Shown piece by piece: positions 4,091 through 64,000 of a DNA stretch of 64,000 nucleotides. Location: NCBI GenBank assembly GCA_001692895.1, contig KV748264.1, positions 310,001 through 374,000 of the forward strand. The letters are read 5' to 3'. The DNA comes from Cenococcum geophilum 1.58. Lineage: Eukaryota; Ascomycota; Dothideomycetes; Gloniales; Gloniaceae. The first letter of the stretch is position 1. Every line of letters begins with the position of its first letter. A program made the translations under genes and the position numbers. A model generated the notes under the pieces. That model made no database searches, was not told the origin of the DNA, and saw only the letters and a program-made list of their open reading frames with translations.

Positions 4091-4096
4091 CGCTAG

Positions 4097-4660: not shown

Positions 4661-4699
4661 AAAGCCACAGCCACTAAATCCGTTAAGATCCTTACTATA

Positions 4700-22010: not shown

Positions 22011-22099
22011 CCCAAAACATCACCTCGCATTTGCCTTACCTCTCCCCACCTTTACTATAACTCTTAACCCACCCCCCCACAAGGTGTACGACTTTCCAG

Positions 22100-25926: not shown

Positions 25927-26289
25927 CAGGGATGTATATAATAATTCTATTAGTTATATAAGTTATAATTACTATATAATCTAATTAATTATAATTAAAA
26001 TCAAACTTCTAATTATAATTATATGTTTATAATTAATATAATTACCTGTAGTAAAAACAGGTAGGAATAGAATATAGTAATAAAACTTTGGTGTTAAGAA
26101 AGTTGTCTATTTTCTAACTATATAGTTGGCATTAACTAAAAAGCACTAAGCCTGCTGTTTTATATATAAAAAACGTCTGTATGAGCTTTTAGGAAAAGTT
26201 TATATATACGCGTCGACGCGTATCTCATTTAAAGCCCCTTCTTAATTATTACCTACTGACTATATCTTCCTTACGACGTATACCTGCGC

Positions 26290-28682: not shown

Positions 28683-28783
28683 TAGTAAGTATAATTTATA
28701 AAGCCTTTTTTAAACCAAGATCAATCTAATCCTAATTAGGAAATTAGTGTATAATTAATATAATTAATATAATTAATTGGAAT

Positions 28784-28963
28784 TGTTAGGAATAGGGCAA
28801 ATTGCCACCATATAAGGCAAATTGCCGTCACGTATCGCCGCGGCGCTAGCGTGGCGAGGAGCCTTAGGCTCTTCGCCCTTCCTAATAAAAGAAAAATATA
28901 TAATAACAATCATCATACTATCTACGAACCATAGCTACGTGATATCCCCTTGTAAGTCCAACA
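28784..28963 (+). repeat. Copia 5' LTR
   Basis: 180 bp, TG...CA, with the shared core CGCCGCGGCGCTAGCGTGG. Compared with the 3' LTR it carries nearly all of the A/T variants, so it has taken more RIP. Confidence 0.9.
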
Positions 28964-31900
28964 CTAATTAATAGTTAACTTCACAGTTATGCTATAGAAC
29001 AGCTAGGTATTCACTAAGAAGAGACGAGCCACTATACCAGTGCTACTCGTGCTAAGGGAAGCTATCTTTTAAGGTTAGAACTGGTCCTAAACCTTAAATA
29101 GAACTCTTCTATAAATCTAAGGATCTAAAGGCTAGAACTAGTCCTAAGCCTTCCCTAGATTATAAATTCTTACGTCTATTATATAGAACAACACGCTTTA
29201 TAAGTCTTTGCAATTTAAGGCCAAAACTAGTCCTAAGCCCTATAATTACAAATATATATCATAAACGCGTACTAAACGATAATCCCTACACTACCAATAT
29301 TCCCTTCCTCCGAAGACATAACTATGGCTACTCTAAATAACTAGAGAGACTCCTTACTACTAGGGGTAGCTATATACGCGAAACTTATTAATAAAGATTA
29401 GGACGTATTTACCTTTAATATAATAACCTATACTATAAAACAAGTTAACGGCTTTCTCCTACACCATATTCTATTCTACTAAGATAGCTATTACACCGAT
29501 TTATAGTTATAGAAATACTTTAGGGAGGATTTTATAGGATAGACCGCCGATACCTAGGCACTTAGTAATATTAATATTATTTAGGATTTTTAAGACTCCC
29601 TCTAAAGGAATAGGGTGTACGTTACTAAGGACGGTAACCCAATTGCCAGTAATATTTACGCCGTTCTTACTAGTATAGAAGAACTAGTATAGACAAAAGC
29701 TAAGATTATACATTAACTACAAAAACCTAAAACCAACCTATATTCTTTAAAAGGCAACTTTAATTTAGAACGAAACCCCCAAAACACTACTCTCCTATAC
29801 CTAGAGGTGCTCTTCCTCTACCTCTACTACCTCTAACTCCTCTATCCCAGCCAACCAATAAGCCTTTATCTTAAGAAGTCATAAATCTAATAAAGGTATA
29901 TTTAGACGAAGAGAAGAAGTTTAAAGGAGAATTATACAATATGCTTAGAGCAAAACTATAGGTCTTTTATAACTGCTGTAACAAGGTTAGAATTTAACGC
30001 CACTAGTTCCATTATGCTTTCTCTATTATATTAAAGGGACGGGCAGCAATATTCTATTACAACTATATTATAGGTAAAAACTATAGCTTTAATATAATGC
30101 TTTAGCTTACTAGAGCCCACTTTAAAACCAATAAAAACCGCTAACTCTATATATCTAAATAGCGGGAGACTATATTCCAGAGAGTTATCACTTCTAACCC
30201 AATAATAACTCACCTAGAGTGTCTTTAACTACTCTTTAATAAACTCTAGAAAATCTAATATAGTTTTACTAAAACCTACCAAAATAAGAATAGTCTAAGG
30301 GACTAGGTTATCTTAGTATGCTATAGCATTCCTAAGTGCAACTTGGCGCTATATAAACCTATAGATATATTTAAAGAAGTATATACCAAACTACGCTTCG
30401 CTATAAGCACTATAATACAAATATAAGAACCCCAACAATTCTATACCAAAAACCCTATTTAAACCAGGATTCTAAACCAATATAATTATAACTAAACTAA
30501 TTAAACATATAGTGGCCGGAGTAGGGGATACAGCAGAGGGTATAATTAACGTTAACTATAAAGCAATTATGGAGGTCCTTATAGAGGTTCATTTTAGAAC
30601 AACTATTAGAAGAAGTGCTACGTTTATAAGAAGCTAAATTGCTAGTTAAATAGACACTCTCTTAATAAGCAAAAGGAGGTATATAATAAGTTCCGATAAA
30701 GTATAAGAAACGTTAAAAATTATAAGGTCACTACGGCCTACTTCTAAAGCTTTCTGGTCTAATATAAAGGTATAGAAGACCTTAAGGATAAGGTTAATAA
30801 GGCCAAATAGCTCCTTATAGATATAAACATTAAGAACTACTCTCCTAACCAATACTTTACTAAATATAGTAAGGTAAATAGCATACAAACTATTGCTATC
30901 CTTAATAACCAATCTACGTTCTATTCTGTTATAAAGTTAAATATCTTTAATAAGCCAAAGAAAAGTTCCGCGTTTTCCTTTAACAATAGATACTCGGCGA
31001 ACGTCTTCTATGGTATTATACCAGATACTAAAGCCGCAGGAGTATCCATAGTAGGAGAACCTTAAGTTTAAGCTCTTTAGCAGCTTAATAGCTCTATTTA
31101 AATTAACTAATTAATAGTAGGCTAATATACAATTCGCTTTAGTAAGGGTATTATAATTTCTCTCGGCATAATTAAGGTCCAAACCCCATTAGGATATATT
31201 ACCTTCCACATTATTCCTATAAACACCCCGTTCCTATTCTATATCTAAGATATAAATAAATTAGGCGTTAAGCTTAATAACCTTAAAAATATACTTATTT
31301 AGGGAGATAATCGGGTGCCCGTTATACGCAAGTAGGGTTACCCTTAGTTGCTCCTCTAATAACCAGAAAGGAGCGTTACTTAGAGTTACTTAACTAAGTC
31401 AGAGCTACATTAACTATACCGTCATTTTAGCCACCTATCCGTTCACCAACTACTTAGGGTTTTTTAATAAGTAGGTTATAAAGTTAAGGTTAAGGCAATT
31501 AAGCATCTTATAAAGTACTACTATTACTGCTAAATAAACCAAAAGTCCCCTAGCCAATTTAAGTTCACCCTTAAAAATAACTACAACTTTAACTTCTATA
31601 TCATTATTAATATTATATATCTTAACGGCAAGCCAGTCCTCTAAGCTATTAACTTATTAACCTCCTTTTAAGCCACACGTTTTTTAAGGGATATATTAGC
31701 TAAAAATATATAAGATACCCTTTAGTTATACTAGATCGATATCTACCTAGGACCCCCTAATTAAATTATTTATAATATAGGAAAGAACTTCTTATCTACA
31801 GAGTTTCAATAATAGGTAAAAGTAATGGCAATTAAGGTTAAGGAAGTCCCTATTAAGGCATATAACAGTATTAAAAAAGCGGAGTAATACTATACGCCAT

Positions 31901-34429
31901 TACGCCGAGTATATAAGATTATTTCTTTAGAACTAGAGGACACTAGCGAAGAAATTATCTTATAGATAGCTATTAAGGCCGTTAACAATTCCGCTGGCCT
32001 AAATAGGCTTATACCCACATTACTAGTCTTTAGCGCCTACCCTTAAATAACTAACAATTCTCCACTATCTCCCTTTATTATATAATAAGCTAAGGCTATT
32101 TACAAAGCAATAAAGGAGGTATAACGTCTATACGCTACGCGCCAGGTTAATAACGCACTAGAAATAAGAAATGGCCTAAATACCTTAACTACGCTTAATC
32201 TGCCACTCCAATCTAAAGTATAGGTATAGCGTAAAAAGGGAGGATAGTTAGGCCCATATAAACTTATTACAATTAATAGTTAAACTTATACTCTTTAGAT
32301 GCCCTATAGACCTACTTAATTCCATTCAATCGTTATTAGGCCCTATTATAAAGATAATAGTTCCGAGCCTTTATAGGATACCCCAGAAGATACCCTAAAA
32401 GATGCCCTAAAGGAGAACCACAATTAACGTACCCTAGAAGGCGACTGTAATCCTAATATAATTATAGTAGACGTGCCGCAACCACGACGCGGTAGAGGTC
32501 GCCCGAAGGGATTATAAAATCGCTAACATCTTATTAATTTCAAAGAGCAATTCGTTACTGCTATAGAGAGTAAAGTTAAGTTATTAATGGCCTTTATAAT
32601 AGCTAAAGAGAAGGCTAACTTTAAGCTCACAAAACAGCTCTAAAAAGAAGGTCGTATTATAACTCTAGGAGCTCCTTTCTAAGCATCTAATAAGTAGGAA
32701 ATCAACAGTCTTATTACAAAAGGAGTCTTTAAATTCAAGAAGTATAACCCTACTAAGTTCAATAAAATTCGCATCTTTAAGTCAAGAATGGTTAATAAGA
32801 TTAAGGGTAAGGCTACTAACGCCCTATTTAAGAAATCAAGGCTTATTATCCAAGGCTACAACGATAACAGTAAGGAGACAATCCTTACGTAATCCCCTAT
32901 AATTTAACAAGCTAGTTAGCGAGTCATTATTATACTAGCTCCCTCCTTAATAAAGAACGGAATAGCAGTTTATTTGCGAGATATTACTTAGGCCTACACC
33001 CAATTAAAGACACGCCTTTAGCGCTTAATACTAGCATATCTTCCGGAGCAAATTCGCCACTAATATCCCAAAGATACGATTATGGTTATACTTAAGCCAC
33101 TATATAGAATTACAGAGGTAGGAACTCATTAGTAGGCTACCTACAGTAAGCACTATAAAGAGAAGCTTCTAATAACTACCTCTATATTCAATCCCTACTT
33201 CCTTATTACAACTATAAAAACTCTATTTAGAATTATCGGCATATAAACTAATAATATAATTATCTTAGGAGACAATTAATTCTTAGCTCTTAAGGAAGAT
33301 AAGCTAGTAAAGGTAAATCTTATAGTAAAGCCAAAAAAAAGACTTAATATAATAACGCTATTGCTCTTTAATGGATATATCCTTTCCCTAAACAAGGACT
33401 CTATTGCTTTACGCTAGAAAGGTTAAGGTAAGAAGATCAACGTTATTAATATTAATTCCCTAAAGCAAGGATATATGGAGCAACGCGCTTGCGGAGCTTA
33501 TATTGCTTCTATCTATCAGCCTAAGGCTTCCTTTAATCTCTTTATTACTACTTAACACCAGGAACCAACTAAGGAGAATATCCTTACCCTAAATAAGCGC
33601 CTTTTTTAGTAAATAACCCATCTTAATTAGGGACTACTCTATATATCTATTGATCTTCCCACCGCTAAGCTCTTTATATTTGTTAACGGGTTATTTATAA
33701 ATAATAAAGATTTTAGCTCCTAGCTAGAATATAAGATTATTATCACAAATAAATCTACCGGAGAGAATGACTTTACAATCTACGGTAATCTTATCTATTA
33801 GAGCTTAACTAAGAGCAAGCGCGTTACTCAAAGCGTTCTAGTATTAGAGATATATAGAATAGTTAGCGGAGTTAACATAGCAATTACAATTGGAACTACC
33901 CTTAAGATAATTACAGATCGGCTTAAACTTCCCGCTATTCCTACGATCGTATACACTAACTTATATTCCCTTTATAAGTATTTAGTCAAGCTTAGTACTA
34001 TAAAGGAGAAGCGTCTTATAATCAATATTATAGCCCTTTAGTAATCCTACGAGCGTTAAGAACTTTTTAAAATTTAATAGATTAATAGCCAAGATAACCC
34101 AGTAGATGCAATAACAAAGGCAAACCCAAATAAGGCACTAAAGACGTTCGTTAACACAAATACTCTACATATACAAGTTAAAGGTTAAGTTAAAAGGGAG
34201 TAGAAGGATTCTACAGACCCTAATTCTAAACAGCCAATTAGGATTTTCCATCCCCAGGATAGAAAATCGCTATTCGCTCGCTTACGACTAGCGCCTTAGC
34301 GGCCCACTCGTCTTCGCGTTAACCCCTAACGCCCTTCTTCTTCTTCTTCCTTCCCTTAGCTTTATACCTTTATATAGTAGTAATCTATAAGTGTCTATAG
34401 ATGGCAACTACAAAAAGAAGAGTTGCCAG

Positions 34430-34609
34430 TGTTGGGAATAGGGCAAATTGCCGCCATGTGAGGCAAATTGCCGTCACGTGTCGCCGCGGCGCTAGCGTGG
34501 CGAGGAGCCTTAGGCTCTTCGCCCTTCCTAATAGAAGAAAAATATACAATAACAATCATCATACTATCTACGAACCGTAGCTACGTGATATCCCCTTGTG
34601 AGTCCAACA
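34430..34609 (+). repeat. Copia 3' LTR
   Basis: 180 bp, preceded by a purine-rich stretch (ACAAAAAGAAGAG) suited to a polypurine tract. It is followed at once by the GGAAT duplication and the rest of the hAT. Confidence 0.9.
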
Positions 34610-34693
34610 GGAATTAAATGCGGTAATTTTATAAGAATTAAAATCTATGGCCTAATTATAATTACACTAATTATATATATCCCTACCTCTAAC

Positions 34694-35204
34694 TGTTAAG
34701 CATCGCCGCGGCCGCCTAGTAGGCTCTTGCATTAATACATTAGCTTATCGCGAGCTATCTGCATTTGAGCTAAATACTAGATATACTACACGTAGTCATA
34801 GGCGTGGGCGTGGGCGTAGGCGTAGTTGTACTCGCGGAGGCAGCTTATAGATATTAAGCAAAGGTAGTAGTACTTAAATTAGGTTAAGCTAGGCTTTATA
34901 AGCTACTGTGCAATCTAATCAATTAACTTAGAAGTAAGTATGTAGTAGTATAGGTGGTGAGTATGGTAGTAAGTATGGTAGTAGAAATTAAGATGCTACT
35001 ACGAGTGTATTGCTAAGTGTTGGTGGTAATATTTAACAGGCTTATAGAAGTCGGGGGGCTTTGCCCTTTTAATAGGACTATGCTAAGGGGTCCTTTAGTG
35101 TATTTCGACTTTGATTTAAACTCTATTACTTATATAATAATTAAAATTAAGACTTAATTGAGGTGGTGTAGTTATAAAAGTTACATTTTAAAAGTTTGAT
35201 TTTT
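34694..35204 (+). other. MULE 3' segment after the hAT
   Basis: This is MULE sequence between the hAT duplication and the right TIR. It contains a short run of GGCGTG units at about 34801-34825 and no confident coding reading; it may include the end of the transposase gene and a 3' untranslated region. Confidence 0.5.
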
Positions 35205-35347
35205 ATAATGTAAATGCATACGAGCTAAATATATGTAAGTTTTAACTAGATATAGCAAGAGCTAAGCTAAATTAAGGGGGGTATACGAATATTAATTGGG
35301 GGGTATGTGAATATCAATTAGGGGGTATCGATTTATTATTGTCTTTT
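35205..35347 (-). repeat. MULE right terminal inverted repeat
   Basis: Reverse complement matches the left TIR. It holds two tandem copies of the roughly 25-bp CCCCC-AATTGATATTC unit against one on the left, suggesting slippage or an expanded transposase-binding array at this end. Confidence 0.75.
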
Positions 35348-35977
35348 AATATATATCCCTAACTTTGCCTAGGTGCCTACCTCTACTCCGTACGCCTCCA
35401 CGCCTATATGCCAGTAATGTTGCCTTTAGAGCTCTAGAGCTTTAGAGCTTTATACCTCTACGCCTTTACGCGCCTGCACGCCGTCCAGATCTATTACATA
35501 TTGGGGGGGGGGCGCTTTGGCACGGTTACGACCTGGAGTAATACGAGGTTAGGGCCACCCCTGCTGATAATCTACCTGAATTCCGCACGAGGTCGCGCAG
35601 CGACTGCCCTTAAGTACTTTTGTACGCGATTTTGGGCGAAAAGGTATATAATTTAAGTTCGATTGGTACTTCTAGATGGTCGCGTAATGTTGTTTTAAAT
35701 TTACAACACCTAAACGCGTTCTACTTCTATATTAAGGCGGTAATGCAGTCCTATATTGAGATGTCTTGGTTACTAGAGTATAGTCCTACATTAAGGCGTT
35801 TTAGTTACTGTAGTAGTCCTATATTGAGGTGTCTTGGTCACTATAGTAGTCCTATATTAAGGCGTCTTAGTTACTGTAGTAGTTTTATAGTAAAATAGTA
35901 TTATATATATATATACTGCTTAATATAGAGCCTTTCCCTCCCTTTACCCCCCCCTCTCTTCTTTTACTTCCCCCGCC
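35348..35977. other. Repeat-bearing spacer between MULE and Crypton
   Basis: At 35376-35480 lie short CCTCYACGCC and AGAGCTYTAGAGCT units like those at 43.15-43.43 kb. A run of ten G follows near 35503. At about 35745-35890, units of about 33-36 bp containing GTAGTCCTATATTRAGGCGT are repeated four times; this explains the 92-codon open frame there, which I do not take as a gene. A pyrimidine-rich stretch (35930-35975) precedes the Crypton end. Confidence 0.6.
35745..35890. repeat. Minisatellite, about 35-bp unit, four copies
   Basis: Repeated TAGTCCTATATTAAGGCGT followed by TTAGTTACTGTAG-type sequence. Copies differ mostly by G/A changes. Confidence 0.7.
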
Positions 35978-38541
35978 CTAAGGGCTAGTTGGTAGTTAGA
36001 TATTCTTATAAAGCCAATCTAAAGAACGCCGGCCTTGTAGCTGTTTTAGTTGGTCAATAGCCTATCTCTCGTCTCTAGCCGTACCGTCTTTTACGTGCCG
36101 TTCTATATCCTTAATTATCCTCTAGCGACGGCTATAAAACATCACCTCGCTGTCGACCCGCCAGCGCGCCCCCCAGTAGCGATTAAGAGCTTCAATTGAT
36201 GGCCTACCCGCTAGCCCTAAAGTCCACTTAGTCCAGAGCTAGAAGACCAAATTACCGCCTTAAAGTATTTTATATTTCCTTAACGGCGCCTATAGGTTAA
36301 GGATAAATGGGAGAGATAGTTGAGTATTAGCTTATGCCTATACTAGTAGGGGCGGTATGGATATTATAGACGGCTGAGTGGATGGTGTAGATATTGTAGA
36401 TAGTGGCTAAGTGGGCAGTGCGGATATTATAGGCGGCTGAGCGGGTAGTGTGGATATTATAGACAGCTAAGCGGGTAGTGTGGATATTGTAGATGGCTAA
36501 GCAGGCGGCGCGGATATGGTAGACATTATGGTAGACGGCGTGGGCTTGCCTAAAGGTAGATGTATAGACTCTGTAGGCTCTATTTAGATATCTATCTTCT
36601 CTTACTAAATCTATATAGGTGTAAATAATGCTAATAACCTTTCTATCTTACTAAGGCGTTTTAAGATTATCTATATGTATAATTAAACCCCCTTTATCTT
36701 TAAGATCGCGGCCTTATATCTTAGCTTAGCTACAGCCTTATAGGCAAGCTAGTATTTCTGCATTATTAGCTTATCTAATATAACTACGCTAGCTAGCGAG
36801 CTTTCTACCCGTGTGGCAAACCTTTGGTACTCCTTGCAGCTAAAGAGGGGGTCCTTCTATAGGGGGTAGAGCGGGAACTACTTACGTAGGATTACTAAGT
36901 CTTGTAATAGGATTACCCTAAGCGCGTAAAGGTGTAGAAATCCTAAGCCTGTAAGGTTAAGCTATATAACCTTATTATTGGCCCTACCTAAATAGTAGGC
37001 CTTTATGCGTTTTAGCTAGATGTTAGTCTTAGGCTATATTTTTAAATAAAGGGCCTTCTCTGGTACCTCCCGTGTGCAGAAGAGAAAGTAGCCCTTTCCT
37101 TCCTTTAGAAAGTTGGTAATTGACTATATAAATGCATAGGGTAGGTAGCTAAGGTAGGCTCCCGTTATCGCGTCCGTATTCTAGCGTCTGGCCTATTTAA
37201 TTTGGGTCTCCTTAACGCCACTAAGCTCGGTATATTAAATGCTCTGCTTATAGGCGCTATAGGTCTTCTTTTTTAAGTAAATTCCTACCCCCTGGAATAT
37301 CTTTTTATTTTATTTAAACTGCATATAATAGCTTAGCGGCTGTTGCAGTACTTTAATACTGCTAGAGAAGATATATAGGTTATAGTAATCCTCTAGCTGC
37401 TAAAAGGATAGGAAGTTTTTAGTGCCGTCTTTACCCTAACGGTTAAAGAAGTAGAAGGCTATTATAGAGAGGGGGTAGAGGATAGGGTTAGTGTTTTGTA
37501 TACAGCCTATATACTTAACCTTACTATACTGATTCTGCTTCCTTTATGTTATTAATATAATTATATACGGCGCTAATTTGTTTAGTTTAGGCCTTTTGTT
37601 TTCTAGTTTAATAAGAATAAGATTAGTAAGCTAAATGTTTTGTCTACTTTTACTACGGGTAATGGTAGTATAGCCTAAGGAACGGGTTAGAAAACGGCAG
37701 CTGTATAGACTGGGTAGGGTATATACAAACCTAATAAATGCTTAGCTGCAGTTTGAAGATAAGATTTGACTGAATCTGGTATCTTAGAGCCCGTCTCCTA
37801 ATACCAAGTGATCGCCTTTTTAAGCCCTTTGATGTTGTAGCCGCCAGTAATTGTAAATAGGCCTTAATTGATAAAGTTAATGTGTTAAATCCGGTCCTTA
37901 TCGCGGCGGACGCTATCTAGTACTGTTAAGAGCTTTGCCCCCCGCAGCGGCTGCGAGGTCTTACCTTTTGACTGCTACGTGTAAAGCTTGGTAATAGCGG
38001 AGACGTAGCTATTTACAACTGAGTATCAGACTGTCTTGTTGAATAGGGCGTCTAGGGCCTCTTTGTCCCATATCTCCCCTTCCTCCTTTATAGCTTCCTC
38101 CCCTGTGCCTGTGGCTGCCTCTGCGGCTGCCTTCCCCCCTAGCTGCCTTACCTGCTTGACCGTCTTCTGCCTCTTTTTTACCCGCTCGCCATCTTTCCAC
38201 ATCTCTTTCCATTTTGACTTCTGTTTTTAATAGCCAGCAGCCCGTGATTCTCGGTTGATAACTTGCTGCTCTAAAAATAGGCAAAGCTTATCTTCTATTA
38301 CCTGGGTACTGTCCGTATTGCCTTCTAGTGTCGCGTACTAGTCTTCCCACTCTTTTTGCTTTGGCTCGTACGCCTTTGTAGTATTCTTTAAGCGCTAGGC
38401 CTTATGAATATCGTGTAGCCGTGCAGTCTGGGCCTTGAATTCGTTCTGGAGGCTATAGGAGAAGGGGGAGGAGGAGGCTAGGGGGGCTTCTTTTGACTGC
38501 AAAGTAGACCGTAGGGTAAGAAGATTTTTAAAAGACTCCAT
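35978..38541 (-). pseudogene. Crypton tyrosine recombinase with GCR1_C domain, relic
   Basis: Reading on the minus strand from ATG at 38541 to the stop at 35978-35980 gives an almost continuous text of about 850 codons. N-terminal half: coiled, charged DNA-binding region (KAAAEAATGTGEEAIKEEGE, then DALFNKTVQYSVVNSYVSAI). The recombinase core follows: RFLTRSLGYTITRSKSRQN with the first catalytic Arg; LYPLSIIAFYFFNR; YTELSGVKETQIK around the HxxR box, where the second Arg codon appears mutated; and NTDAITGAYLSYLP with the Tyr nucleophile still present. A proline-rich linker of tandem repeats precedes a C-terminal GCR1_C domain (LAGRPSIEALNRYWGARWR, then RRSLDWLYKN). Breaks are RIP-type TAG/TAA plus possible small indels, denser in the 3' half. 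Cryptons move as circles through this recombinase. Element ends were not identified. Confidence 0.85.
36340..36535 (-). repeat. In-frame tandem repeat in the Crypton linker
   Basis: About five units of roughly 39 bp encode, on the minus strand, a Ser/Thr/Pro-rich linker (TISTLPAQLSIISTLPAQP). They sit between the recombinase core and GCR1_C. The unit length is a multiple of three, so copy number could vary without breaking the frame. Confidence 0.75.
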
Positions 38542-44939: not shown

Positions 44940-45231
44940 AGACTTTGGCGAGATTTGTGGGAAAACCTAAACACGGTTTATACGAGAAGACCTCATCAAC
45001 TTTGACAAAATTAATCTACCCTCCCACAATACCTGTCGACATAAAAATTACACCAAATTATAGAGAAAAGCCTACTCTATAAGTTATGAGATCTTTAGCT
45101 CCTTATACGCGCGCGACGTTAAGAGGAATTCGTCGCGGTAGAGGCCCCAATTCGACCTCTGTACCGCTGAGCAGCTCAGTAAACACCAACGCTGAACGCT
45201 TACGCCCACGCCGCCAGCCCTCTGCGTAGAG

Positions 45232-45655
45232 CTGTGGAGCTTTGCGAGAGCTCTGCGAAACGAAGCTTAGGGGGAGACCTGCACAGAGCTCTGCACGAAG
45301 CTCCGCACGAAGCTCTGCTCGAAGCTCCGCACGAAGCTCTGCTCTGCACTCTGCTCTACGCTCTGCTCTGCGCTCTACACGAAACTCTGCTCTGCGCTCT
45401 GCTCTGCGCTCTGCTCTGCGCTCTGCTCTGCGCTCTGCTCTGCGCTCTACTCTGCGCTCTACTCTACACTCTGCTCTGCGCTCTGCACGAAGCTCTACTC
45501 TGCACTCTGCACGAAGTTCTGCTCTGCGCTCTGCACGAAGCTCTGCTCTGCGCTCTGCACGAAGCTCTGCACGAAGCTCTGCACGAAGCTCTGCACGAAG
45601 CTCTGCACGGAGCTCTACACGAAGCTCTGCCCAAAGCTTACCCCCTAGTAGTAGC
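45232..45655. repeat. GAGCTTCGTGCA satellite, block 2
   Basis: Tandem GCTCTGCACGAA and GCTCTGCGCTCT units (the reverse complement of block 1). The unit length keeps several frames open on both strands (155-186 codons of ALHE, ARSS or RAEL repeats). It lies in the body of hairpin-ended copy B, left of the mariner insertion. Confidence 0.85.
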
Positions 45656-45773
45656 AGAGGCACTCCGGGTCAAGGGAGGATATTTTCAAGGAAGGACCTA
45701 ACTATAGCACGTACTAGGTGTTACAATGGCTTTAAGTAGTAGATATCTACATATCTGTATAATTTTATCTATA

Positions 45774-47457: not shown

Positions 47458-50400
47458 CAGGCTTGGTACTCAATCACCCAGGTTTCAATATTGAATTGAA
47501 TTGAATGCCAAGACTCAATCAATTCAATCAACTAAGAGCTCGCTAGCTTGGCAATTCAATCAATATAAAAGTCCTAGTTGAATTAAATTGATTAATAAAT
47601 ATTAAAACTTTTAATATTATATAGAAATATGCTGAATATAACATACAATAATACTCTAGATTTTATTTTTCTTAGTCCTCCTTACTAAAAAAGGTTTACC
47701 CAAGCATCACCCATTATTTATAGTGTTATATTATCGCCAGAGTCTTAGCAGGTAAGAAGAGTTTTACTACTAGACTTGCCCACCAATAATATCAATTTTA
47801 TTACCACCATGGCTTCTAATATATTAGATAATAGCTAAACAAATACCTCAACACTCTCTACAGCTCGTTCTAATCCTACCGTCCCTACCAACCTCCAGCA
47901 CGCTTACAGCTTAAATGGCAATACTAACGCGTCTACCACCGATCCTCAGCCAGAAGACTATATAGAAGTTAATTAAAAGCGCATTCTTAGCTACCATATT
48001 CCTCATTTAACGGCAGGCAGACGTCGCGGGCCTATATAGTAGTATAAATACGATATTAAGCATGGTAAAACTAGTAGGCGGTATTAGCTCTACAAAATCT
48101 GCCATAGGAAGAAGGCCCATATATAATATATATATCTAGATTCGGGCACTACTAATTATTCTAAGCACATGCTAGAAGAACACAATATTAGCGACGGTCC
48201 TAGAAAGAAAGCAAAGCTAGGACAATTAGTCTTTAAATAGCTACATCTTTAAGCTAATAAGCTAGAGGATTAAGCCCGAATAAACACTATTATCTAGAGC
48301 CTTAGTCCAGATCGTTTTACTTAGCTTTTAATGCGATAGGTTATACGTAATAACATTCCATTTTATAAGCTTAAAAGCAGTATATTTCACGATCTTATAG
48401 GGTACGCTAATTAAGCTATATTAACCGCAGGCCTTCTACCTACTTATCGGATAATAAAAAAGCTAATAATTACTAAGTTTAATCGACATAAGGAAGTAGT
48501 TACTGCTCTACTATATAGAGCTCCGGGCAAGATTCATCTATCGTTTAATCTTTAAACGTCTTGTAATCATCTATCACTACTTAGTAAGCTTAGCTTTTAG
48601 GCCTTTATTGCATTAATTACTAACTACTATATAGGAATCGTCGTTTATTTTATAGACAAAAAGAACCAGCACCGTTCCTTTCTTCTAGCCCTCCCTCCTT
48701 AAGAAAAGCAACATCTAGGCGTTAATATTGCAGCCAGCGTTAAAAAAATCCTTACTAAGTTTGGAATTAGTAAGTAGTAGGTAGGCTACTTTATAGCGGA
48801 CAACGTAAATAATAATAACACCTGCATTAACGAACTCTTCATTAAGTTTGGATTTAATCCGCTATATCGTCGCCTTCGTTATATAGGCTATATTATTAAT
48901 CTAGTCGCTTATATACTGCTTTTTGGCGTAGATTCAAGGGCTCTAAATAAGGAAGAAGAGAATAAGGATAAAATCCTCCGGCAGATATTAGCTTAAAGGA
49001 AGATTAGGCCTATTAGCAAGCTTTATAATATTATTTTTTAGATATTTAACTCTAAGCAACGCATTAAAAAGCTACTTAAGCTTTAAGATCTAGAGCTTAA
49101 AGACAATACATCACGAACCGCTACCAAGCTTCTTCCAATTAAGCCAGTAGAGACGCGCTAGAACTCCATAAAATTAGCAATTAAACAAGCTATTAAGCTT
49201 CAAAACCCCATTAATCGCCTTATTAGTGACAAAGTTATTAAATAGATAATATACTAGGCTAAGGTTACTAAGAATGGTATAAAGGATCCGCCTATAAGAG
49301 TCCGTAAAAAGCCTAATATTATTAAAAACTACCTAACAGAGGACGATTGGGCTATATTAACTAAATATCAAGCTATTCTAAAGCCTCTTTAGATTACTAC
49401 AAAGCGACTAGAAGGATGCTTAAAGGAAGGCATATATAAATTAACGTTATTAATTTCTATCGTAAACTAATTAATATAGGCAAATTCGGATCCTTATAGG
49501 AGGTCCTTCCTATTTTTAAGTATCTACTTAATTAATTTAAGCGCTTTAAAATAGAGTACGAACACTACCCGGAGCCTCACTTCCGCCATAATATTAATAC
49601 AGCTTAGCTAAAGCTAACCAAATACTACTAACTTACTAATTGTTCGCCTGCCTATATCGCTGCCATAGTCCTTAATCCATTAATTAAATGGACGTTCGCT
49701 AATAAATACTGGACAGGTAAAGAACGGGCTGGTTAGAAGGAAGCAGCTAAGCAAGCTATTCGCGATCTATGGCTTAAATATAAATTCCTTCCAATTAAAT
49801 CAGTTACTAACGGCAAGGTTCTTAAACAGCGGCGCGTCTTCTTATCTAAAATCGACGACTATTTTACCGGCGGCTTCACTCAGCCTACGTCTACACAAGA
49901 TCGCGACAAGTATAACAATTAGCTAGCACGAGTAGGTTACCCTAAAGACGTTTAATATACGGATCTAATTACCTATTAGCGAGCTAGAGTAAACAGAACT
50001 TAATATCCACGACTCGCTCGCATAGCTCTCGATTTAATGACTATTCCACTAATATTGTCAGACCCTAAACGAATATTTAGCCTCATAGGCTTGCTCCTTA
50101 CTCCTAATCGCGCACGACTACAATCTAATATAATTAGAGCTTTAATGGCAGTAGGATCGTGGGACAGGGAAGGCGTAATTAAGATAGTAGATAGGCAGTT
50201 AAGGCGGCCGCAGAAGGAAGGAACAGAAGGTACACAGCAGGATAGTAACTTAACACCACGCTAAGACCCACAATAGGCCTATATTAACGGCAGAAGTAAC
50301 AGAAACGACAGTAGAAAGCGATCCGGGCGTCGCTGGGTAGGTCCTCCTGCATCAACACCATGCCAAGACTCGTAATAATCACTAACTACTACATAGTTGC

Positions 50401-52138: not shown

Positions 52139-52146
52139 AAAAAAAA
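52139..52146 (-). terminator. RNA polymerase III terminator of the tRNA-Gly gene
   Basis: Eight consecutive T on the minus strand, starting 9 nt after the tRNA 3' end. This is well above the four or more T usually enough for Pol III. Confidence 0.8.
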
Positions 52147-52154
52147 TAATTATA

Positions 52155-52280
52155 TGCACTGACCGGGAATCGAACCCAGGGCTCATCGATACAACGATGG
52201 CAACGATGAATTTTCTTTTACTCGTCAGTGTAAATGATTAAAAGCGGGGACAAATACTTACACCACTAAACCACCAGTGC
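52155..52280 (-). tRNA. tRNA-Gly(GCC) with two insertions
   Basis: Reads on the minus strand. The acceptor arms GCACTGG and TCAGTGC pair at seven positions (one G-T), followed by discriminator A. The A box TGGTTTAGTGG and B box GGTTCGATTCC are intact. The anticodon GCC lies at 52201-52199 between arms CATCG and CGATG. Two segments do not belong to the tRNA fold. The first is 47 nt in the D-loop (52261-52215), starting GTAAGT and ending TAAAAG with CTGAC before the end: the layout of a small spliceosomal intron. The second is 8 nt (TCGTTGTA, 52197-52190) between positions 37 and 38, the canonical tRNA intron site. Without both, 71 nt remain, matching the usual fungal tRNA-Gly(GCC) arrangement. 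It may be functional or a decayed copy. The flanks are little RIP-mutated. Confidence 0.85.
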
Positions 52281-53067: not shown

Positions 53068-56000
53068 GTGGCTATAGAGGAAGGATCAATGAGGTGTCAG
53101 AGCGTGGTATTGAGCCAATCGGTAGAGCCGTACAATGACTCAGTTTTCTGGAATGCGAACGTCCCCCATACAATCTATGAAGCCTGCTCATTTTCTTTCC
53201 TTCCTACTCTCCTTCCTGTATACTTGATTACTTGGTGGCTCAATTTTAACTCCCTTACTGCCATAGAACGATTCTTTCCTATACGCGCAGCCGTGCCCAC
53301 TGACGACGTCATTCTTGTACCAAAATTAATTAATCCAAAGGCCGACGACTCCAAGGAAGTTGACGAGTTTCGACTCTACGGCAGACAGTATATTCGGTGT
53401 TAATCTCTTGCAAAGCAGCTAAAGTATATTAAGCAACGAACGTCACCAATCTGGCGGTGGGGTGAGGATATGTCAATCGGAAGTCCGTGCACCGATTGTG
53501 AGAAAAGAAGGACTCGTGTAAAGATTGATCTATGAAGAAAAAGAGGCTATATATACATAAGGTAGATGCAGGTACAGGGGGGGGGGTACGTCATAGGGAG
53601 TCGGTGACTGAGTCGGTGACCGAGTCAAGGGGTAGGTAACTGAGTCGGCGGCATGACACCCGACTCAGGTCGACAGGATATCTTCCTGAAAGATTTAAAT
53701 AGCAAAACCACGTACTTTTACTGCTGGCTTTATGAAAAGCAGAAGCGCCACTAGGAGCTTATAATCGTATTAAAAGGAAGGTGTACGGCTTTAGATTACC
53801 TTACGGAAGATTATAATATGCATAGGACTAGCGGCGAGCTCTAGAATAGTAGTATGCCCGAATCGGATTAGCTAACGATTAAGGAGTACCCTACTTAGTG
53901 GGCTCTTGAGATAAGTTATAATTTTAATAGTTTTAAACGGCTCCTAATTTAATAGATTATATATTGCTATATTGCCTTTTTCTAATTTAAGAATATATAT
54001 TTTTAATAGCTCCTATTCTTCTTATACCTAGGCCTTAAGAAGCTCCTTCTAAAGGCCGTAAATATAATTTGGGGTTAGGTTATTACGGCGTACAAAAAGT
54101 AGAAAGAGCAATTAAAGAAGGACCTTAAGGAAGCCCGTAGCGCGATATTAATATCCTTTAATCTTTAGACGTCTCTAAATACATATATAGTTCTTAGGGT
54201 GGTTGCTTATTTTATTAATAGGAGAGGAAGGCGTTATAATACTGTTCTTGGACTATAAGAGATTTTAGGCGAATATAGCGGCGAGAATTAAGCGGGTGTA
54301 TTTATTGCTCTTTTTAAGGAGTATAAGATCTGCGGTAATATAGGATATTTTATAGCTAATAATGCGGAGTTAAATAATACTTATACTAACGCAGTTCTTT
54401 AAGCTCTTTATAGTAATATATTAGTAAAATAGCGGAAGGTATGTCGGCTATATTACTTTAGCTATATTATAAACCTTTACGCCTAGGCGTTTATTGTAGA
54501 AAAGGACTCCAAGAAGATTTATAAGTAGCTCTCTACGGCCTATCGCGATTAGGATATAGCGACTGTTAAAAAACTATAGTAAAAGCGCGGAGCGGTTAGA
54601 CTGCTTTATAATATTATCCAATATATTCGCCTAACCCCCTAGCATTATAGTTTCTTTACAAAGATCTAAATGGGAGGTTTATTGGCTAAGTTTAATGGCT
54701 TAGAGGTAGGTGCTAAGATCTTATATAGGTATTTAGTGTTAAGGTTTAAGCTAACTACACCCCTCTGACGTTATAAGTAGGGGGTTTAATTGGCTTAGTT
54801 ATGGATTTTCTAAAACGCTAGTAGAAAATCGTTAAAAGTCTCTATACGGTTATAATATTTATTTTATTTTATAGGTTAATACTAACGCTAATTAGTTAAT
54901 TTAGAATAACTAAATATAATAGAATTCCCTTTTTATGGCTATAAGTTGCTTCCTAAATTGCAGGAAACGTATTAAGCATTTCTATAATAAGTATATAACA
55001 GCTACCTTAAAGCCCCTTACTAAGGATAATATACTTTAACCCCACTATTAGAGGGAGCTTAAATACTTATATAATTACTTAGAAACCTTTTATAAGGCTA
55101 CCCTTATAGTAAAAGGGAATGCGATAAATCTTGCGGACTACTTTTAAACACTTAATTGGCTCCTAAATGAGCTTAACACTATAAGGCAGAAGTTTTTAGA
55201 GATCTTAGTTAAGAAGCAGAAGCTTTAGTAGAGCCGCTATAAGGCATAAAGCTATAAATATCTTGCAGGCTGTGTAGAAGCTGCATGGCAGAAGTATAAG
55301 AAGTACTTTAAGAAGGTAGATGTCACTAGAGCGTACTATATAGTGATTATACTAAATCTAATACTTAAGATAAAGTGGTTTAAGCAGCAATGGGGGAGCT
55401 TAGATAAGAAGAAGAAGTGGATTCTAATAGTTAAGGCTTTAATTATAGAGCTCTGGCTTAAATATAAAGATAAATATTTAGTAAGGTCCTTAAATTTACC
55501 TTATTTAAACTCTCTACCACGGCAGCTAAATTAAGAGAAGATGTACACCTCTGCTTAAGCTCATAAGCGCCTTAAAGTCTCTTACTAAGATTAATTAACC
55601 CCGCTTAAAAAAGACAATCTTATAGCCTACCTTAAAACCAATTGTGAGCCTGTTAGCGATAACGAACACTTCAACGTTTTATAATACTGGTTAGATCGCC
55701 TTAAGAGCCAGCCTGATTTGGCTTGCTTTGCCCTTAATATTCTAGCGGTGCCTCCTATATTAGATAAATATAAGAGGCTATTTAGCAGCTATAAGATTCT
55801 ACTTAAGGATTATCGCTCTTAATTGCGGATGGATATAGTTAAGGCAAATAAGTGTCTTTGGCACTCGTATGGCCGTCTATAGAAAGGTATATTTAACAAT
55901 TAAGTGGTTAGAGAGGTAGAAGGAGAGCCTGCGACTCCGCTAGTTTTACCCTTATAAGCTTCCGCGGCTCGCAAGGCTGCGGAAGCTCTTACTTTACTAC

Positions 56001-57903: not shown

Positions 57904-58249
57904 TGGAAGTACGATTAGAAGGCATAGTTGATGGTAATTAATTGGTTAAATCTATGTAGGCTACACGCGTAGTTTTGATCAGACCTGCGGAGGATACGCC
58001 GGATAGCCCTCTCGGATAATAGACCTATCAGCTAATAGTATCCGGAGACTATCCGGATAGTCTCCGGATAGTCTTGGCAAAAACCCCTAATATACTTACA
58101 CTTGTAATGCACCCCCCAATATTAAATAAATCATTTTTCTATTAACATAGATTTATAGAGCCTATAAAGCTCTTTAAAATGGTACCACTTTTATCTAAAT
58201 ATCCTAAGGATAAGTAATATTATATAGATATAAAGAGCTCTCTAGGGAG
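57904..58249. other. piggyBac upstream region and spacer
   Basis: Probably holds the right end of the piggyBac element, which I could not locate. It includes the perfect palindrome at 58039-58070 and CCGGATA/TATCCGG repetition around it. TA-rich after 58.1 kb. Confidence 0.45.
58039..58070. repeat. Perfect 32-bp palindrome
   Basis: Centre between 58054 and 58055; each half is TATCCGGAGACTATCC. It contains three nested TATCCGGA-type sites. Confidence 0.9.
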
Positions 58250-58510
58250 CCCCGCACGGAGCTCTACTAAAGCTTAGTAAAAGCTCTGCACGAAGCTCTA
58301 TATAAAGCTCTACACGAAGTTCTACACGAAGCTCTATATAAAGCTCTACTTAAAGCCCTACTTAGGTCTCTAAAGCTCTACTAATACATAGCACTAATAT
58401 ACTATAACGCTCTATATAACGCTCTACATAATACTCTATATTAAAGACTCTATATATAGAGGCTCTATACGACGCTCTATATAACGCTCTATATATAAAG
58501 GCTTTATATA
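58250..58510. repeat. GAGCTTCGTGCA satellite, block 3 (RIP-degraded)
   Basis: Units such as GCTCTACACGAA, GCTCTGCACGAA and GCTCTATATAAA, grading into CTCTATATAACG. It is the same family as blocks 1 and 2 but strongly C-to-T/G-to-A shifted. It abuts the 3' end of Tad copy 2. Confidence 0.7.
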
Positions 58511-61500
58511 TAATAATTCATTGCTTAACGTCCGATTCGGATCCCTATTAGGCCTACGCGGACTACTCCTTATATATATATGGGGAGAAAACTCTATTTA
58601 AGAAAACCCCGTAATCCATCTCCCCGCCTTTTAGGACTCGCCTACGGGGCGCCTGCGAGGCGCCTGCGAGTCACCTATAGTGCTTCTACTACCTTACTTT
58701 TTGACCTCCTTAGGAACCACTACTGCCGTAACAAGCCTACGGACGCGCTAGTATTGTAAACTTTACTCTACTGCTATAGAGTCATTAGGGGGCACCTATT
58801 ACTCGCCCCCCTACCTTCTATTGCTATTTCCTTTATAACCTAGAACTGGTTTAGTACATTTTAGCTAATAAGCTACTAGGTAACCGCCTTAAGGCCTTTT
58901 TATATTAAGAGCAGTATCTTATAGTTCTCTATGCTAGCTACTAAGAGTATTACTTTTTAGTTAGTACGTAAGGGGCATAATAGTATTACGTGCTTTAGTG
59001 TCTATCTTAGCCAGCTATATTCGTATCTTAGGCTACCTACTAGGACACTTACCTAGTAGAGCTAGTCTTTTAGTCCTATTACTCCTGTTCTTAAGAGTAT
59101 TGCTATTATATTTTCTACCTTTATTAGGCCTTCTCGGAGCCCTAGAGTATTTACCCCCTATGACGTTAACTATGCTACGGCTTGGGTTCTTCTTGCCTTA
59201 GTTAACCTCTATACCTTTAACTCCTATACGCCTCTCTAGCATTAGTCCAGCTAGTATTATATTGCGGTAGTTAGTTTCCCGGCGTTCTTTTATACTTTAC
59301 TTTAGCTCTTTTCTCTCTCTTACTATTATCCTTGCTGGCCTCTTACGTGTTTCCCTTCCTCCTCTATATAGGCCTAGGCCCTAAAGCAGCACTATTCTTC
59401 TTCTGTTTTCTTTACCTATTTCTCTAATATATCTTCCCTACTTTAGGGTTATTAGTTTATTCTCCTATAAGGCGCCCTAGGGTCCCTCTATAGTTTATTT
59501 AGGCGTGTCTTAATATACTTTATAATATTAGAGTTATGTTCCTTTTACGCCCTTTATATTGTAGCGGCTTTAATATATAGTTGTAGGGGGGGAATATTAG
59601 CTTCCTTTTTAAGCAGTACTGTGGCCGTTCGCTTATATCCGCCTGTTATACTCTAAAGGTAGGTTATTTGGACCTTTTGGAGTAGTTTAAGAAGCGATTT
59701 AGGGGGGCCTTTCTTAGATTCTCCAATGGCCTAAATACTAGACCTATATATTATGGTTGGCCGGACAACTGCTATATATAGTAGGCGTGACCTCTAGAAG
59801 TATAGGCCCTATATAGAATTAACAATCCTAGATAATACGATATACTGTGCTTGGCCCTTATGGGCCGCTTAGGCCGTATATACGCTCTACTAGAGCTTAC
59901 TGTCTACCCATACTCCTAATACTCTTAGGCCCTAAACTGGCTAACCCCTAAAGCCTTAGATGCGAATTATGTGCTAAAGATCTGTAGATTGGTTGCGTTT
60001 TCTTATAAAATAGATTAGCTGGTACTTCTCTAGTGAGAATTAGACTCTATATTATCTTACCCATTCTATATAGGTATTATAAGCTTTCTTTAGCGTTCTG
60101 CAATTCTCTGTAGCTATTAGCCCGTATATAATTAGGTTTATATCGTTAATAAAGCCTATCCCCTAGGTCGCCCCTTCCTTAAAGGAGTTAAGTAGGTTGC
60201 TTATAAAGAAAAGGAAAAGTATAGGCGAGAGGGGTAATCCTTATGGTATTTCTGTTACAACTATAATAGGGGGGCTTTAGTATCCGCTAAAGACTAGTAA
60301 TATTTCTTTTTGGCCTATAAACCCTTAAACAAATTATATAATCTATTCTAGGAAGCCTTTTACTCTAAGGATATATAGGAGACGCTTATAGGGTACGTTA
60401 TTGTAGGCGCCACTAATATCTAGGCTAAGTATTAATACTATAAAGTCCCTTCGCATTGCCTATGCTAATTTAATAGTAGTAGCAAGTAGCGTAAGTGCTA
60501 ATAGTGTTAAGCGGTTCTTTCTTGCCCCTATTTAGCTTTATAGTAGTAGGGCGTGTTCCTCTACCGTGTCTGTTATATAGTCCGCTATTACCCTTTTTAA
60601 GATCTTACTAAGGGTATTCTCTAAGGCAATAGGGCGGTAGCTCCCTAGAAATAAGTAGTCTGCTTTACCTTCTTTATATAGGATAAACGTTGTTATAGCT
60701 CTTCCGAGTCTCGGGTAGTAGCCTATTATAAAGTATACTTTAGCTACATCCGTAAGCTAAAGTGCTATTAGTGGTCTGTAGGTCTTTAGGGCTTTATTTA
60801 GGATCCCATCTAGTCCTAGTACTGTATTATTTAAAAGGCGGCTAATAGTTCTGGCTATTTCTTCGGTTATTATATTACTGTTAACCCTTAGGCGAGTCAC
60901 CGGTGCTTTACCTATAATATTACTGAGGTCTGCTAAAGCTAGTTAGGGGGAAAATCTTTCTATAAGGATTTTTGCCTTCTTATTATTGTCGCTTATGGCT
61001 AGTAATTTACCTGGTCTTTATAGGGGCGGAAGGTATAAGTCTTCTACTAGACGTCCTGCCTTTCTTTTTACCTATTTTATTATCCTCCAAAGACCTTTGT
61101 TATAGGGGAGGCTTAGGTTAATAGTATACTTATTTATAAACTATCTCCAGCTATTTCTTACTTCTTTTTTTAGGGTATTCTTTAGCTGGTTTCTTGTGTC
61201 TTTATAATATCTCTCGTCTTTAAAATCGTGGCTACTTATGTATTTTCTTCTTGCTCGTCATTAGCTAGTAATAAGAACCGCGTATTATACGGACTATACG
61301 TGTCGCGCGTAGGGGCCTACTTTTAAGACCGGGCAGTGCTCTTCTAACCCATTTTTAATTGCTACCTAGATCCTTTTTAGTCTTTAGTCGATTTCCTTAG
61401 GGGTAGCTACTAAGCCTCGCTTATTTAGTATTGGGTGGATTTCTTCTAGGTCTTAAAGTTATTGTTTAACTATATTAAGGAAGCTATTTATCTTAAGCTT

Positions 61501-64000
61501 TCTTATTGCGTATCTTTTGCTATTTAATTATGCCTTAATATCTAGATCTAGCTATATTTAGATAGGGATATAGTCTAAAGTAAGTGCCTATTTTTCTTTG
61601 GGGTTACACCTTTTAAGTCTCTAGTATAGGCCTTCGTCTATAAATATAAGGTTAATTATACTTCTAGCGGTACCTCATTGCTATATAATTGCTCCTAGGG
61701 GGGTAGCTAGCTTAAGGCCCCAGGTGTCTATAGCTTTTAGTAGGCACTTTACCTATCGTTCGGCAGCAATATAGATACCCCCCTACCGCGGGTAGTAGAG
61801 GTTTATGTCTCCTAATAGGATAGACTCTATGTCTTTGGTTTCTAGTAAGCTTATTACTAATATAATATTCTCTATTTATAGGACCCCTTTAACCCTAGGG
61901 TTATATATATTAATAATCTAAACCGGTCCCCTATATATCTAAATTGTTATAACTGTAATATCTAGGTTAACTGCCTACTATAACTATAAGGATAGGCTGA
62001 TAGCCTTGCTGATTATAAAGCATATGTATATAGCTGTTTTTGGTTTATATAGGAGCTGGAATCCTTAGGGGCAGTATATTAATTATATATAGGTATTATA
62101 ATACGGCTCTTATATAGCAAGGATATAGTATTTCTTTGGGTTTAAGCTGTCTAGCAAGGGCCTTGCAAGACGGTGGTTTGTATTACCGCAGTTGTACTAT
62201 ATAATGGATAGGTGGCGGACCCCCAGCGGGGGTCCTTCGCCTCTCCTTTATTCCTCGCTTCCTTTATTTCCACTTTCTCTAGGATATTTAAAGCTTCTGT
62301 CTCTTGTATCTATATCCTAGTTACTACTTATTTTATATAGAGCTTTCTATTTCTATGTCTTATGTTCCTAGTAGCGCTTCTATATCTAAATCTGTTATTA
62401 TCTCCAGTTCCTCCCCTATTCTTACTGGTTGGCTATATACCCTTTAAGAGTCGGCTATAAATGTTATGTTTACCGCGTTAAGTCTAATTCTTAATTATCC
62501 TGGTCTTAAGCTTGCTATAGCTGTCCATAATAGTCTTCCTATAGGGCGTCCTCTCCCTTATATCCCCTATAACCCTTATATCCCTATACGGTTTAGTAAT
62601 ATCACGCAGCAACACTTCTGGCCCGTTAAGGCTTAGGATGGCTGGCCTAGCCCCCTAGTATTAAAGGTAGGAAATGCTGGAAAGGTACCTGCGCCCCCCT
62701 AGCTTATCGCCTATTATTTCTATTTATATAACCTAGCGTATAGTTATTTCCGCAGCTATTAAGCCCTTACCTTCTATCTCCTATATTTAATACAGTCTCC
62801 TCTCTCCCACGCCTTATATATGCTTTAGTAGCAGTTTACGCATTTTATTTAGTCTTAATTTAAGCAGTTTCTTATATTGTAGGGGCCTATATAGTGGCCG
62901 CAGCACACCTATACTGCGTATGTGGATTAGGTATATCCCTATTATATATAGCGGTAGCATTATTTTAGGTGGAGTTTATAGTTATAGAGCCTTATGTCGT
63001 ATATAAGGCCATTTATAATAATACCTTTTTGGATAAGGAGTTTTTGCATTTCTAGTATATATATGCTAATAATAAGGAAGCTATATGTTTAACCGGCGTC
63101 TCCCTAGCGAGTCTCTGGCGACCCTTATATTTTTTTATTATTCTTATTATATACTTAGTTTACATTTTCCTATTAAAGCCATTAAATTTAAGTAATCTTA
63201 AGTCCTAGTATAAGGCGTTCCGTTTATTTTACTATCTTATATATAGTTGCCGTATTATCTGCCTAGCGTCCCTTTTCTACCCTAAGGCTTAGGGGAACCG
63301 CTAGGACTTTAACTAGGTAATCTTCACGAAGCACTTTTATGCCAATACGTTCTCCTAGCCTGTCCCCTACCCTTATAGCTTATTCCTTTACCTATTAGTC
63401 CCTTAGGGTGACTCTAATATCTCCGCTCTTAAGGTATTAGACTATAACGGCGTTATAGACCTCTTTGCAAATTTCTATAAGGACTTCTATTTCTAATTAT
63501 CCCCTAAGCCCCTCTACTTTCTCTATATTTAGTTATATTATAATTATATATCTGGATATTATCTTTAGGGGGGTAGGCTCCCTATACTATAGAGACGCAG
63601 CTACGGCGGCCTAGGTACGGTTCGCCGGTAGAAAGGGGTTTTATTTATTTTTAATTTTGCTTAGCCGTTAGAGGATTTAGTTAAGGGTTTACTAAAGAGG
63701 CGCCTAAGGTACGCTAGATTGGCGGAGCTATTCTGCTAGCTGTATTAGTTCGTTATAGCTAACGGTTGCTCCCCCATAACTACGGATACTAGACGCGTCT
63801 AATAGGCTTTATATTTTATTAGATGCCTTCTTAATAGAGGTCTTTCCGTTTTATAGTGTGGTATTCGCCCGTTCTTATTATGGAGGGCTATTGCTAGGCG
63901 TGGTTCTAGTGGGCGCGCGCGAGTATAAACCACCGTCGTTCGACGTGTGTCTCCCCTACGATACATGCATCTTAGGGGGATTCTCTAGGTGTTTTTCAGG
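58511..64000 (-). mobile_element. Tad1-like non-LTR retrotransposon, copy 2 (runs off the window)
   Basis: Same element as copy 1 in opposite orientation. The 3' UTR (58511-58900) matches 15735-16090. The reverse-transcriptase core lies at about 59.9-60.9 kb and the zinc-knuckle ORF1 at about 62.8-63.1 kb. The sequence near 63.7-64.0 kb matches 10.57-10.9 kb. The two copies differ almost only by transitions, each with its own RIP pattern. The 5' end is beyond the window. Together the copies form a 5.4-kb inverted repeat about 42 kb apart. Confidence 0.85.
60000..61700 (-). pseudogene. LINE ORF2 relic of copy 2
   Basis: The minus-strand text repeats the copy 1 blocks: the GSPLSPILFLF region near 60.2 kb, the NNINLI-type catalytic box near 60.14 kb and the YRPIALENTLSKIL region near 60.63 kb. 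The endonuclease lies further upstream, near 61.5-61.85 kb. RIP stops are at other positions than in copy 1, as expected if both were mutated independently. Confidence 0.75.

Follow-up and report, generated by a model that had tools for sequence, protein, structure and literature searches.

On the minus strand of the window, by which we mean the whole 64,000-nucleotide stretch of Cenococcum geophilum DNA analysed here, a tRNA-Gly(GCC) gene (52155-52280, 126 nt unspliced) is interrupted in its D loop by 47 nt that begin with GT and end with AG. The locus thus raises the question of whether the insert is an mRNA-type intron, removed by the spliceosome from a working tRNA gene. A preliminary description of this DNA had left three options, namely a D-loop intron of a new kind, an inserted intron-like sequence that kills the gene, or a decayed copy. 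Our results favour the first of these, since GT-AG inserts were found in 15 further tRNA genes, and on the strength of sequence comparisons we regard it as highly probable (about 0.88) that this tRNA-Gly(GCC) gene works and that its 47-nt insert belongs to the spliceosomal introns (GT-AG, U2-type), of which at least 20 would then interrupt 16 tRNA genes of this filamentous fungus.

Anatomy of the interrupted gene and of its Gly(GCC)-like relatives

The unspliced gene scored 34.9 bits with the Rfam model RF00005 (gathering threshold 29), which placed inserts of 48 nt in the D loop and 9 nt in the anticodon loop, and an exact parse resolved three exons on the minus strand. Exon 1 (52262-52280, 19 nt) extends from the 5' strand of the acceptor to T20 of the D loop, exon 2 (52198-52214, 17 nt) from A21 to A37 with the GCC anticodon inside, and exon 3 (52155-52189, 35 nt) from position 38 to the discriminator A73. 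The 47-nt GT-AG intron (52215-52261, minus strand) follows mature nucleotide 19, that is, it lies between T20 and A21 in standard numbering (20/21). It starts with GTAAGT, contains a CTGAC (52224-52228, minus strand) beginning 14 nt before its end and leaving 10 nt of intron after its A, and finishes with AAAAG (CTGACGAGTAAAAG), hence GTAAGT...AAG; this CTGAC we take to be the likely branch site, going by the fungal consensus YTRAY. An 8-nt intron of the endonuclease type (52190-52197, minus strand) occupies the canonical 37/38 position, as indicated by the parse and by comparison with two related loci, L017 and L020. Upon removal of both inserts a normal 71-nt tRNA was obtained. The gene further displays the anatomy of a functional tRNA gene, with a spliced cloverleaf, the right anticodon, the A box (TGGTTTAGTGG, 52263-52273) and B box (GGTTCGATTCC, 52166-52176) of an internal Pol III promoter, and a T8 run (52139-52146) as Pol III terminator, all on the minus strand. 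The preliminary description agreed base for base with our reading of the insert (GTAAGT start, CTGAC 14 nt from the end, AG end), and its account of the 8-nt insert at 37/38, of the 71 nt left after both removals, and of a minus-strand gene with both Pol III boxes and a T8 terminator was borne out by the parse and the sequence.

The boundaries of the 47-nt insert are fixed by comparison, because three Gly(GCC)-type loci, L017, L020 and L143, have no insert at this point of the D arm and read TTTAGTGGT followed directly by AAAAT; the earlier claim that exact removal of 47 nt restores the D arm is thereby backed. No slide of the exon join is possible, not even by one base. The cloverleaf score taken alone is a weak test of the cut in this gene, with 31 of 1798 cuts tied at the top and two of them GT-AG. 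ARAGORN called no tRNA over the window; with introns of up to 60 nt allowed, the unspliced gene was returned as tRNA-Tyr and, once the 47 nt had been taken out, as tRNA-Gly(gcc). The D arm is absent from the predicted fold of the unspliced RNA.

The whole assembly to which the window belongs (177.19 Mb, 162 contigs) was searched for Gly(GCC) copies using a D-arm 14-mer with at most one mismatch (57 A-box places, all examined), the spliced 71-mer (three loci), and box B plus 3' end (five places). Five Gly(GCC)-like loci were recovered: the window gene, L017, L020, the decayed L015, and L143. In L017 and L020, 8-nt inserts are located at 37/38 as in the window gene, and the D loop has no insert (TTTAGTGGT followed by AAAATCC). 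These two loci (L017, positions 1496-1571, on contig C16; L020, positions 1496-1571, on C39) differ at one base in their exons and at several places in their 8-nt introns, and their flanks are unrelated; both are devoid of one anticodon C and of the T-loop CG, so that they are conserved despite having no usable anticodon or B box.

L143 (positions 103-225, on C17; L105 is a smaller piece of it) is the other Gly(GCC) gene whose anticodon is intact. It has no insert at 37/38 and carries instead a 52-nt GTAAGT...TTAAT...TAG insert after T25 (25/26), whose removal yields a 71-nt tRNA-Gly(gcc) according to ARAGORN, with one other of 1953 cuts scoring equally. Inspection by hand revealed a C-C mismatch closing the T loop and a B box altered to CCTTCGATTCG, and for these two reasons the transcription of L143 is uncertain. 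GT-AG inserts thus interrupt both of the Gly(GCC) genes recovered with a complete anticodon, at different positions (20/21 and 25/26). The preliminary description had reasoned that several intact intron-less Gly(GCC) genes elsewhere, together with a lack of reads from this locus, would mark it as a pseudogene; neither the 57 A-box places nor the searches with the spliced 71-mer and with box B plus 3' end yielded a Gly(GCC) gene that is uninterrupted and has its anticodon intact.

Inserts in tRNA genes across the genome

A genome search with the Rfam tRNA model, in which 63 of 10103 candidates were scored, did not recover the window gene, so the survey relied on DNA patterns. Patterns based on box B, two of which also required a downstream T5 run, led to 29 loci read as tRNA genes, including a Trp locus (L088) that entered the set via a chance match at its 3' end. 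An insert outside the anticodon loop is present in 16 of these genes (the window gene, L055, L066, L074, L075, L076, L079, L081, L084, L085, L087, L088, L092, L093, L096 and L097) and absent from 13, namely L063 (the same as L012, Asp), L005, L006, L007, L008, L009, L010, L011, L078, L082, L086, L094 and L131, the last one a tRNA-Thr gene with no GT-AG insert. Beyond the box-B set, L143 has an insert, and L002 (initiator Met) and L003 (Gly-TCC), which come from the Rfam tRNA search that favours uninterrupted genes, have none. Altogether, 17/32 tRNA genes read in this genome bear an insert outside 37/38, a figure that is not a census and is to be read with the knowledge that the box-B patterns do not systematically cover tRNA genes with a split or divergent B box. 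The genome searches were lossy: the spliced 71-mer missed L143, as the Rfam search missed the window gene. Among the isoacceptors not encountered at the loci read are those for Ala, Asn, His, Phe and Tyr.

Left out of the 32 were L004, L013 and its neighbour (organelle-like or unclear), L014, L015, L017, L020 and tRNA-like repeats. Also outside the count are 19 box-B places, consisting of C77:130652 and 18 repeats whose matched letters resemble L077, L080 or L137. L077 is a tRNA-like repeat and was not counted as a tRNA gene, and L080, L083, L089, L095 and L098 were judged by eye not to be tRNA genes. Dispersed tRNA-like repeats, perhaps SINE-like, include L034, L042, L118, L077 and similar loci (GGTGGTCTAGTGGTGAGATTACC..., GGTTCGAATCCTACAGCCC...). 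Only 21 copies of the tRNA box B 11-mer GGTTCGATTCC were counted across 177 Mb, as against 80 of the reversed pattern, which has no CpG, and only 5 of the 21 correspond to tRNA genes. L007 (C54), by eye, is a probable tRNA-Lys(TTT) with about 4 extra anticodon-loop bases, a very small 37/38 intron if real.

Related inserts at other loci, which the preliminary description had named as one kind of support to look for, do occur and at varied positions. A clean GT...AG insert is present in 16 of the 17 interrupted genes, giving 20 inserts on 13 contigs, with two each in Arg(ACG), Arg(TCG), Glu(TTC) and Leu(CAA). They are located in the D stem or loop, at 25/26 and 26/27, in the anticodon stem, in the variable region, and in the T arm at 53/54; none of the 20 is found at the canonical 37/38 position. 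The exon between the two introns of Glu(TTC) is 10 nt long. In Arg(TCG) (L097, on C33) the second intron splits the B box between 53 and 54, and the AG that ends the intron, together with the exon TTCGAGCC, forms a B-box-like AGTTCGAGCC within the gene. After splicing of Leu(CAA), one anticodon-stem mismatch is left by hand parse. The remaining interrupted gene is the Trp locus L088 (C61), whose D-loop insert ends in CTAACATCCACATAG, showing CTAAC...TAG as in the others, with no clean GT start (GAGGTTTT); splicing there may start at an unusual donor or at a GT whose use would leave a longer D loop. For this gene 219 cuts outscore the chosen one, and the parsed mature form is called Gly(tcc) by ARAGORN; it was excluded from the count of 20 introns.

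Splicing signals and comparison with mRNA introns

The 20 GT-AG tRNA introns measure 45-59 nt, with a median of 48. For each of them, all cuts of 35-65 nt in the hand-parsed gene were evaluated with a home-made cloverleaf score, amounting to 1798-2325 cuts per intron. The GT-AG cut lies at the score maximum in 12/20 introns, with 1-9 better cuts in the remaining 8, and it is the best or joint best among GT-AG cuts in all 20; between 1 and 313 cuts per intron score equal to or better than the chosen one. ARAGORN, applied to the 16 unspliced genes, called no tRNA in 10 and a wrong tRNA in 5, and identified the tRNA correctly but misplaced the intron in 1. With the GT-AG introns alone removed the expected tRNA was recovered in 14/16, and with both intron kinds removed in 16/16; the 37/38 borders had been shifted by 1-2 bases after the first results in Glu(CTC) (twice), Arg(TCT), Ser(TGA) and Val(CAC).

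Regarding the internal signals, 18/20 introns have a YTRAY whose A lies 6-24 nt before the intron end, compared to 5.1 +/- 1.8 in 500 shuffles of the interiors (largest 10); the other 2 have none in that range. G is found at +5 in 17/20, the three exceptions being GTGATT, GTAAAA and GTAACG. Recurrence at other loci and these intron signals exclude a random indel as the source of the window insert. An introner-like shared family was also rejected, as no matches longer than 10 nt emerged when 19 introns were compared all against all.

As a reference we used 20 mRNA introns from three tubulin genes of the same genome, delimited by spliced alignment requiring GT-AG. The donor consensus GTRNGT is followed in both sets (+5 G in 17/20 tRNA vs 19/20 tubulin introns; +6 T in 12/20 vs 14/20), and the YTRAY branch site is found in 18/20 of each. 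Lengths overlap, the tRNA introns being shorter (45-59 nt, median 48, vs 46-121 nt, median 62.5; p = 7e-6), and AAG ends are commoner among them (4/20 vs 0/20); on both grounds, the tRNA introns are not a plain sample of mRNA introns. Runs of at least four T were counted in 2/20 tRNA vs 10/20 tubulin introns (p = 0.014) and runs of at least five T in 0/20 vs 4/20 (p = 0.11), in a small set and uncorrected for length. Transcription by Pol III would require introns to be short and to avoid T runs.

A U6 gene also contains an insert of this type. In L099 (C12), a 48-nt GTAAGT...CTGAT...TAG insert (positions 1571-1618) follows GGATGACA and precedes a U6-like 3' end and a T8 run; it was the one match among the 47 candidates scored out of 8638. 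That the spliceosome can reach Pol III RNA has a precedent in fission yeast, whose U6 is a Pol III RNA known to be spliced (PMC10484740).

Alternatives, proposed processing and related systems

Paralogous genes inform on the function of the spliced products. The two Glu(CTC) genes, L055 and L066, are identical at 72/72 positions of their mature parts, whereas gapped alignment of their GT-AG introns gives 58% identity (shuffles: mean 50%, largest 59%) and their upstream flanks 53% (shuffles: mean 51%, largest 58%). Perfect exons beside near-chance introns and flanks imply long selection on the spliced product of both intron-bearing genes. Furthermore, the Asp gene L074 carries a 51-nt GT-AG intron exactly where its paralog L012 has none, the mature parts being again identical at 72/72 positions. 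Queries for Cys and for Trp each led to a single locus, interrupted in both cases, and further copies are possible, as the same type of query missed L143. The two tubulin genes inspected for codon demand contain 23 Cys codons and 8 Trp codons, and use GGT or GGC for 65/70 glycines.

These data bear on the proposal that the window gene, possibly along with others, is a defunct or decaying copy with an inserted intron-like sequence, working intron-less genes being located elsewhere. The existence of the decayed Gly-like L015 and of L017 and L020 with a defective anticodon and T loop speaks for it, as do the T-arm mismatch of L143 and the incompleteness of the assembly and of the searches. Nevertheless, we consider it very unlikely, in view of the exon identity in Glu beside drifted introns and flanks, the equally perfect identity in Asp, the interruption of the only Cys and Trp loci found, and the lack of any uninterrupted, intact-anticodon Gly(GCC) gene in the searches described above. 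In addition, the acceptor stems of the window gene and L017 differ by two compensatory pairs, 3:70 (A-T for G-C) and 4:69 (C-G for T-A), and these changes together with the genome-wide pattern weigh against the decayed copy that the preliminary description had listed.

Two further proposals concern the machinery rather than the state of the genes. The inserts might be non-canonical tRNA introns that the tRNA splicing endonuclease excises at bulge-helix-bulge (BHB) motifs, a type known from Crenarchaeota, nucleomorphs and the red alga Cyanidioschyzon; their positions do resemble archaeal ones (20/21, 25/26, 29/30 and 53/54, as given in PMC4090602), and D-arm introns exist in some eukaryotes. 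However, a strict BHB (two 3-nt bulges and a 4-bp helix) was found at 0/20 junctions, compared to about 2% at random for each of two strand arrangements, and a relaxed one at 1/20 against 8.4% at random, so the motif is not enriched. A BHB origin would, moreover, leave the GT-AG ends, the branch sites and the uniform length of 45-59 nt unexplained, and the 37/38 inserts of the same genes, the usual substrate type of that enzyme, are GT...AG in 0/14 cases; we therefore hold this proposal to be very improbable. An origin from very small or degraded group I introns, or from a family of mobile elements that the spliceosome does not excise, is scarcely credible, since the inserts have GT-AG ends in 20/20, along with branch sites, and the 19 introns compared share nothing beyond 10-nt matches. 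Group I introns usually have a U just before the splice site, and a T is found there in only 6/20. In favour of such an origin, fungal rDNA has yielded introns of only 56-81 nt that were putatively assigned to group I (PMC3160393).

Under the spliceosomal reading, Pol III would transcribe the whole gene, from the internal boxes to the T run, and the spliceosome would take out the GT-AG intron as a lariat, allowing the D arm and the cloverleaf to form; the tRNA splicing endonuclease and ligase would then remove the 8-nt intron at 37/38. We infer that the spliceosome acts before the endonuclease because the D arm is missing from the predicted unspliced fold and a subunit of the yeast tRNA endonuclease probably contacts the D arm and the acceptor stem (PMC3978253). 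Transcription, lariat splicing, the order of the two steps and the use of the product are likewise inferences drawn from the gene.

More broadly, we think it likely, judging from gene structure, that the spliceosome is an essential tRNA-processing machine in this fungus, that translation needs ordered spliceosome-then-endonuclease splicing of one Pol III transcript, and that mRNA-type introns have invaded tRNA genes genome-wide: about half of the tRNA genes found carry them, among which are both intact-anticodon Gly(GCC) genes and the sole Cys and Trp genes recovered. If so, the tRNA supply would depend on the mRNA splicing machine, and the spliceosome, thought to play no part in tRNA making, would probably be needed for many tRNAs of this organism. 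It would also show that bulk intron gain can reach Pol III genes, and would explain why standard tRNA finders miss genes in this genome. tRNA paralogs with, without, or with a differently placed intron would offer a direct test of intron gain.

Several known systems share part of these traits. The U6 snRNA gene of fission yeast has an mRNA-type intron (Tani and Ohshima 1989, 1991, as cited in PMC10484740), and thus represents, like the genes described here, an mRNA-type intron in a short Pol III gene, which in that case is removed by splicing. Unlike it, the hosts here are tRNA genes with internal promoters, many genes and positions are involved, up to two GT-AG introns occur per gene, and an additional endonuclease-type intron lies in the same transcript. 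In the rDNA of lichen fungi, ectopic spliceosomal introns have been described, one of them of 57 bp, which yeast removed from a Pol I transcript (PMC8527467); these are likewise spliceosomal introns in non-Pol II RNA, but in Pol I rRNA instead of Pol III tRNA. According to PMC4090602 and PMC3978253, the non-canonical tRNA introns of archaea, nucleomorphs and Cyanidioschyzon merolae rest on BHB motifs and the tRNA endonuclease. They resemble the present ones in affecting the D, anticodon, variable and T arms, with several per gene and often beside a 37/38 intron, and differ in that BHB motifs are not enriched here, and GT-AG ends, a branch site and a length overlapping that of fungal mRNA introns are present. 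The canonical 37/38 introns, processed by endonuclease and ligase, are represented in the parsed set by 14 inserts, among them the 8-nt one of the window gene; the GT-AG inserts differ from these by sitting elsewhere with other signals. A 2026 review still gives tRNA splicing as spliceosome-independent (PMC13149111), and no earlier report of spliceosomal introns in tRNA genes was found in the literature searched, which mostly excluded bioRxiv preprints and papers behind subscription. Among tRNA introns they would represent a new kind; among spliceosomal introns they would extend the U6 and rDNA cases to a new class of host.

Other features of the window lie apart from the tRNA gene. AT-rich stretches at 1-16000, 22000-38000, 48000-50000, 54000-56000 and 58000-64000 display TpA/ApT ratios of about 1.5-1.9 and a low (CpA+TpG)/(ApC+GpT), the signature of repeat-induced point mutation. 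Positions 45103-45701 harbour a coding-like minisatellite, with ELRAELRAERRAE-type runs on one strand and related repeats in other frames.
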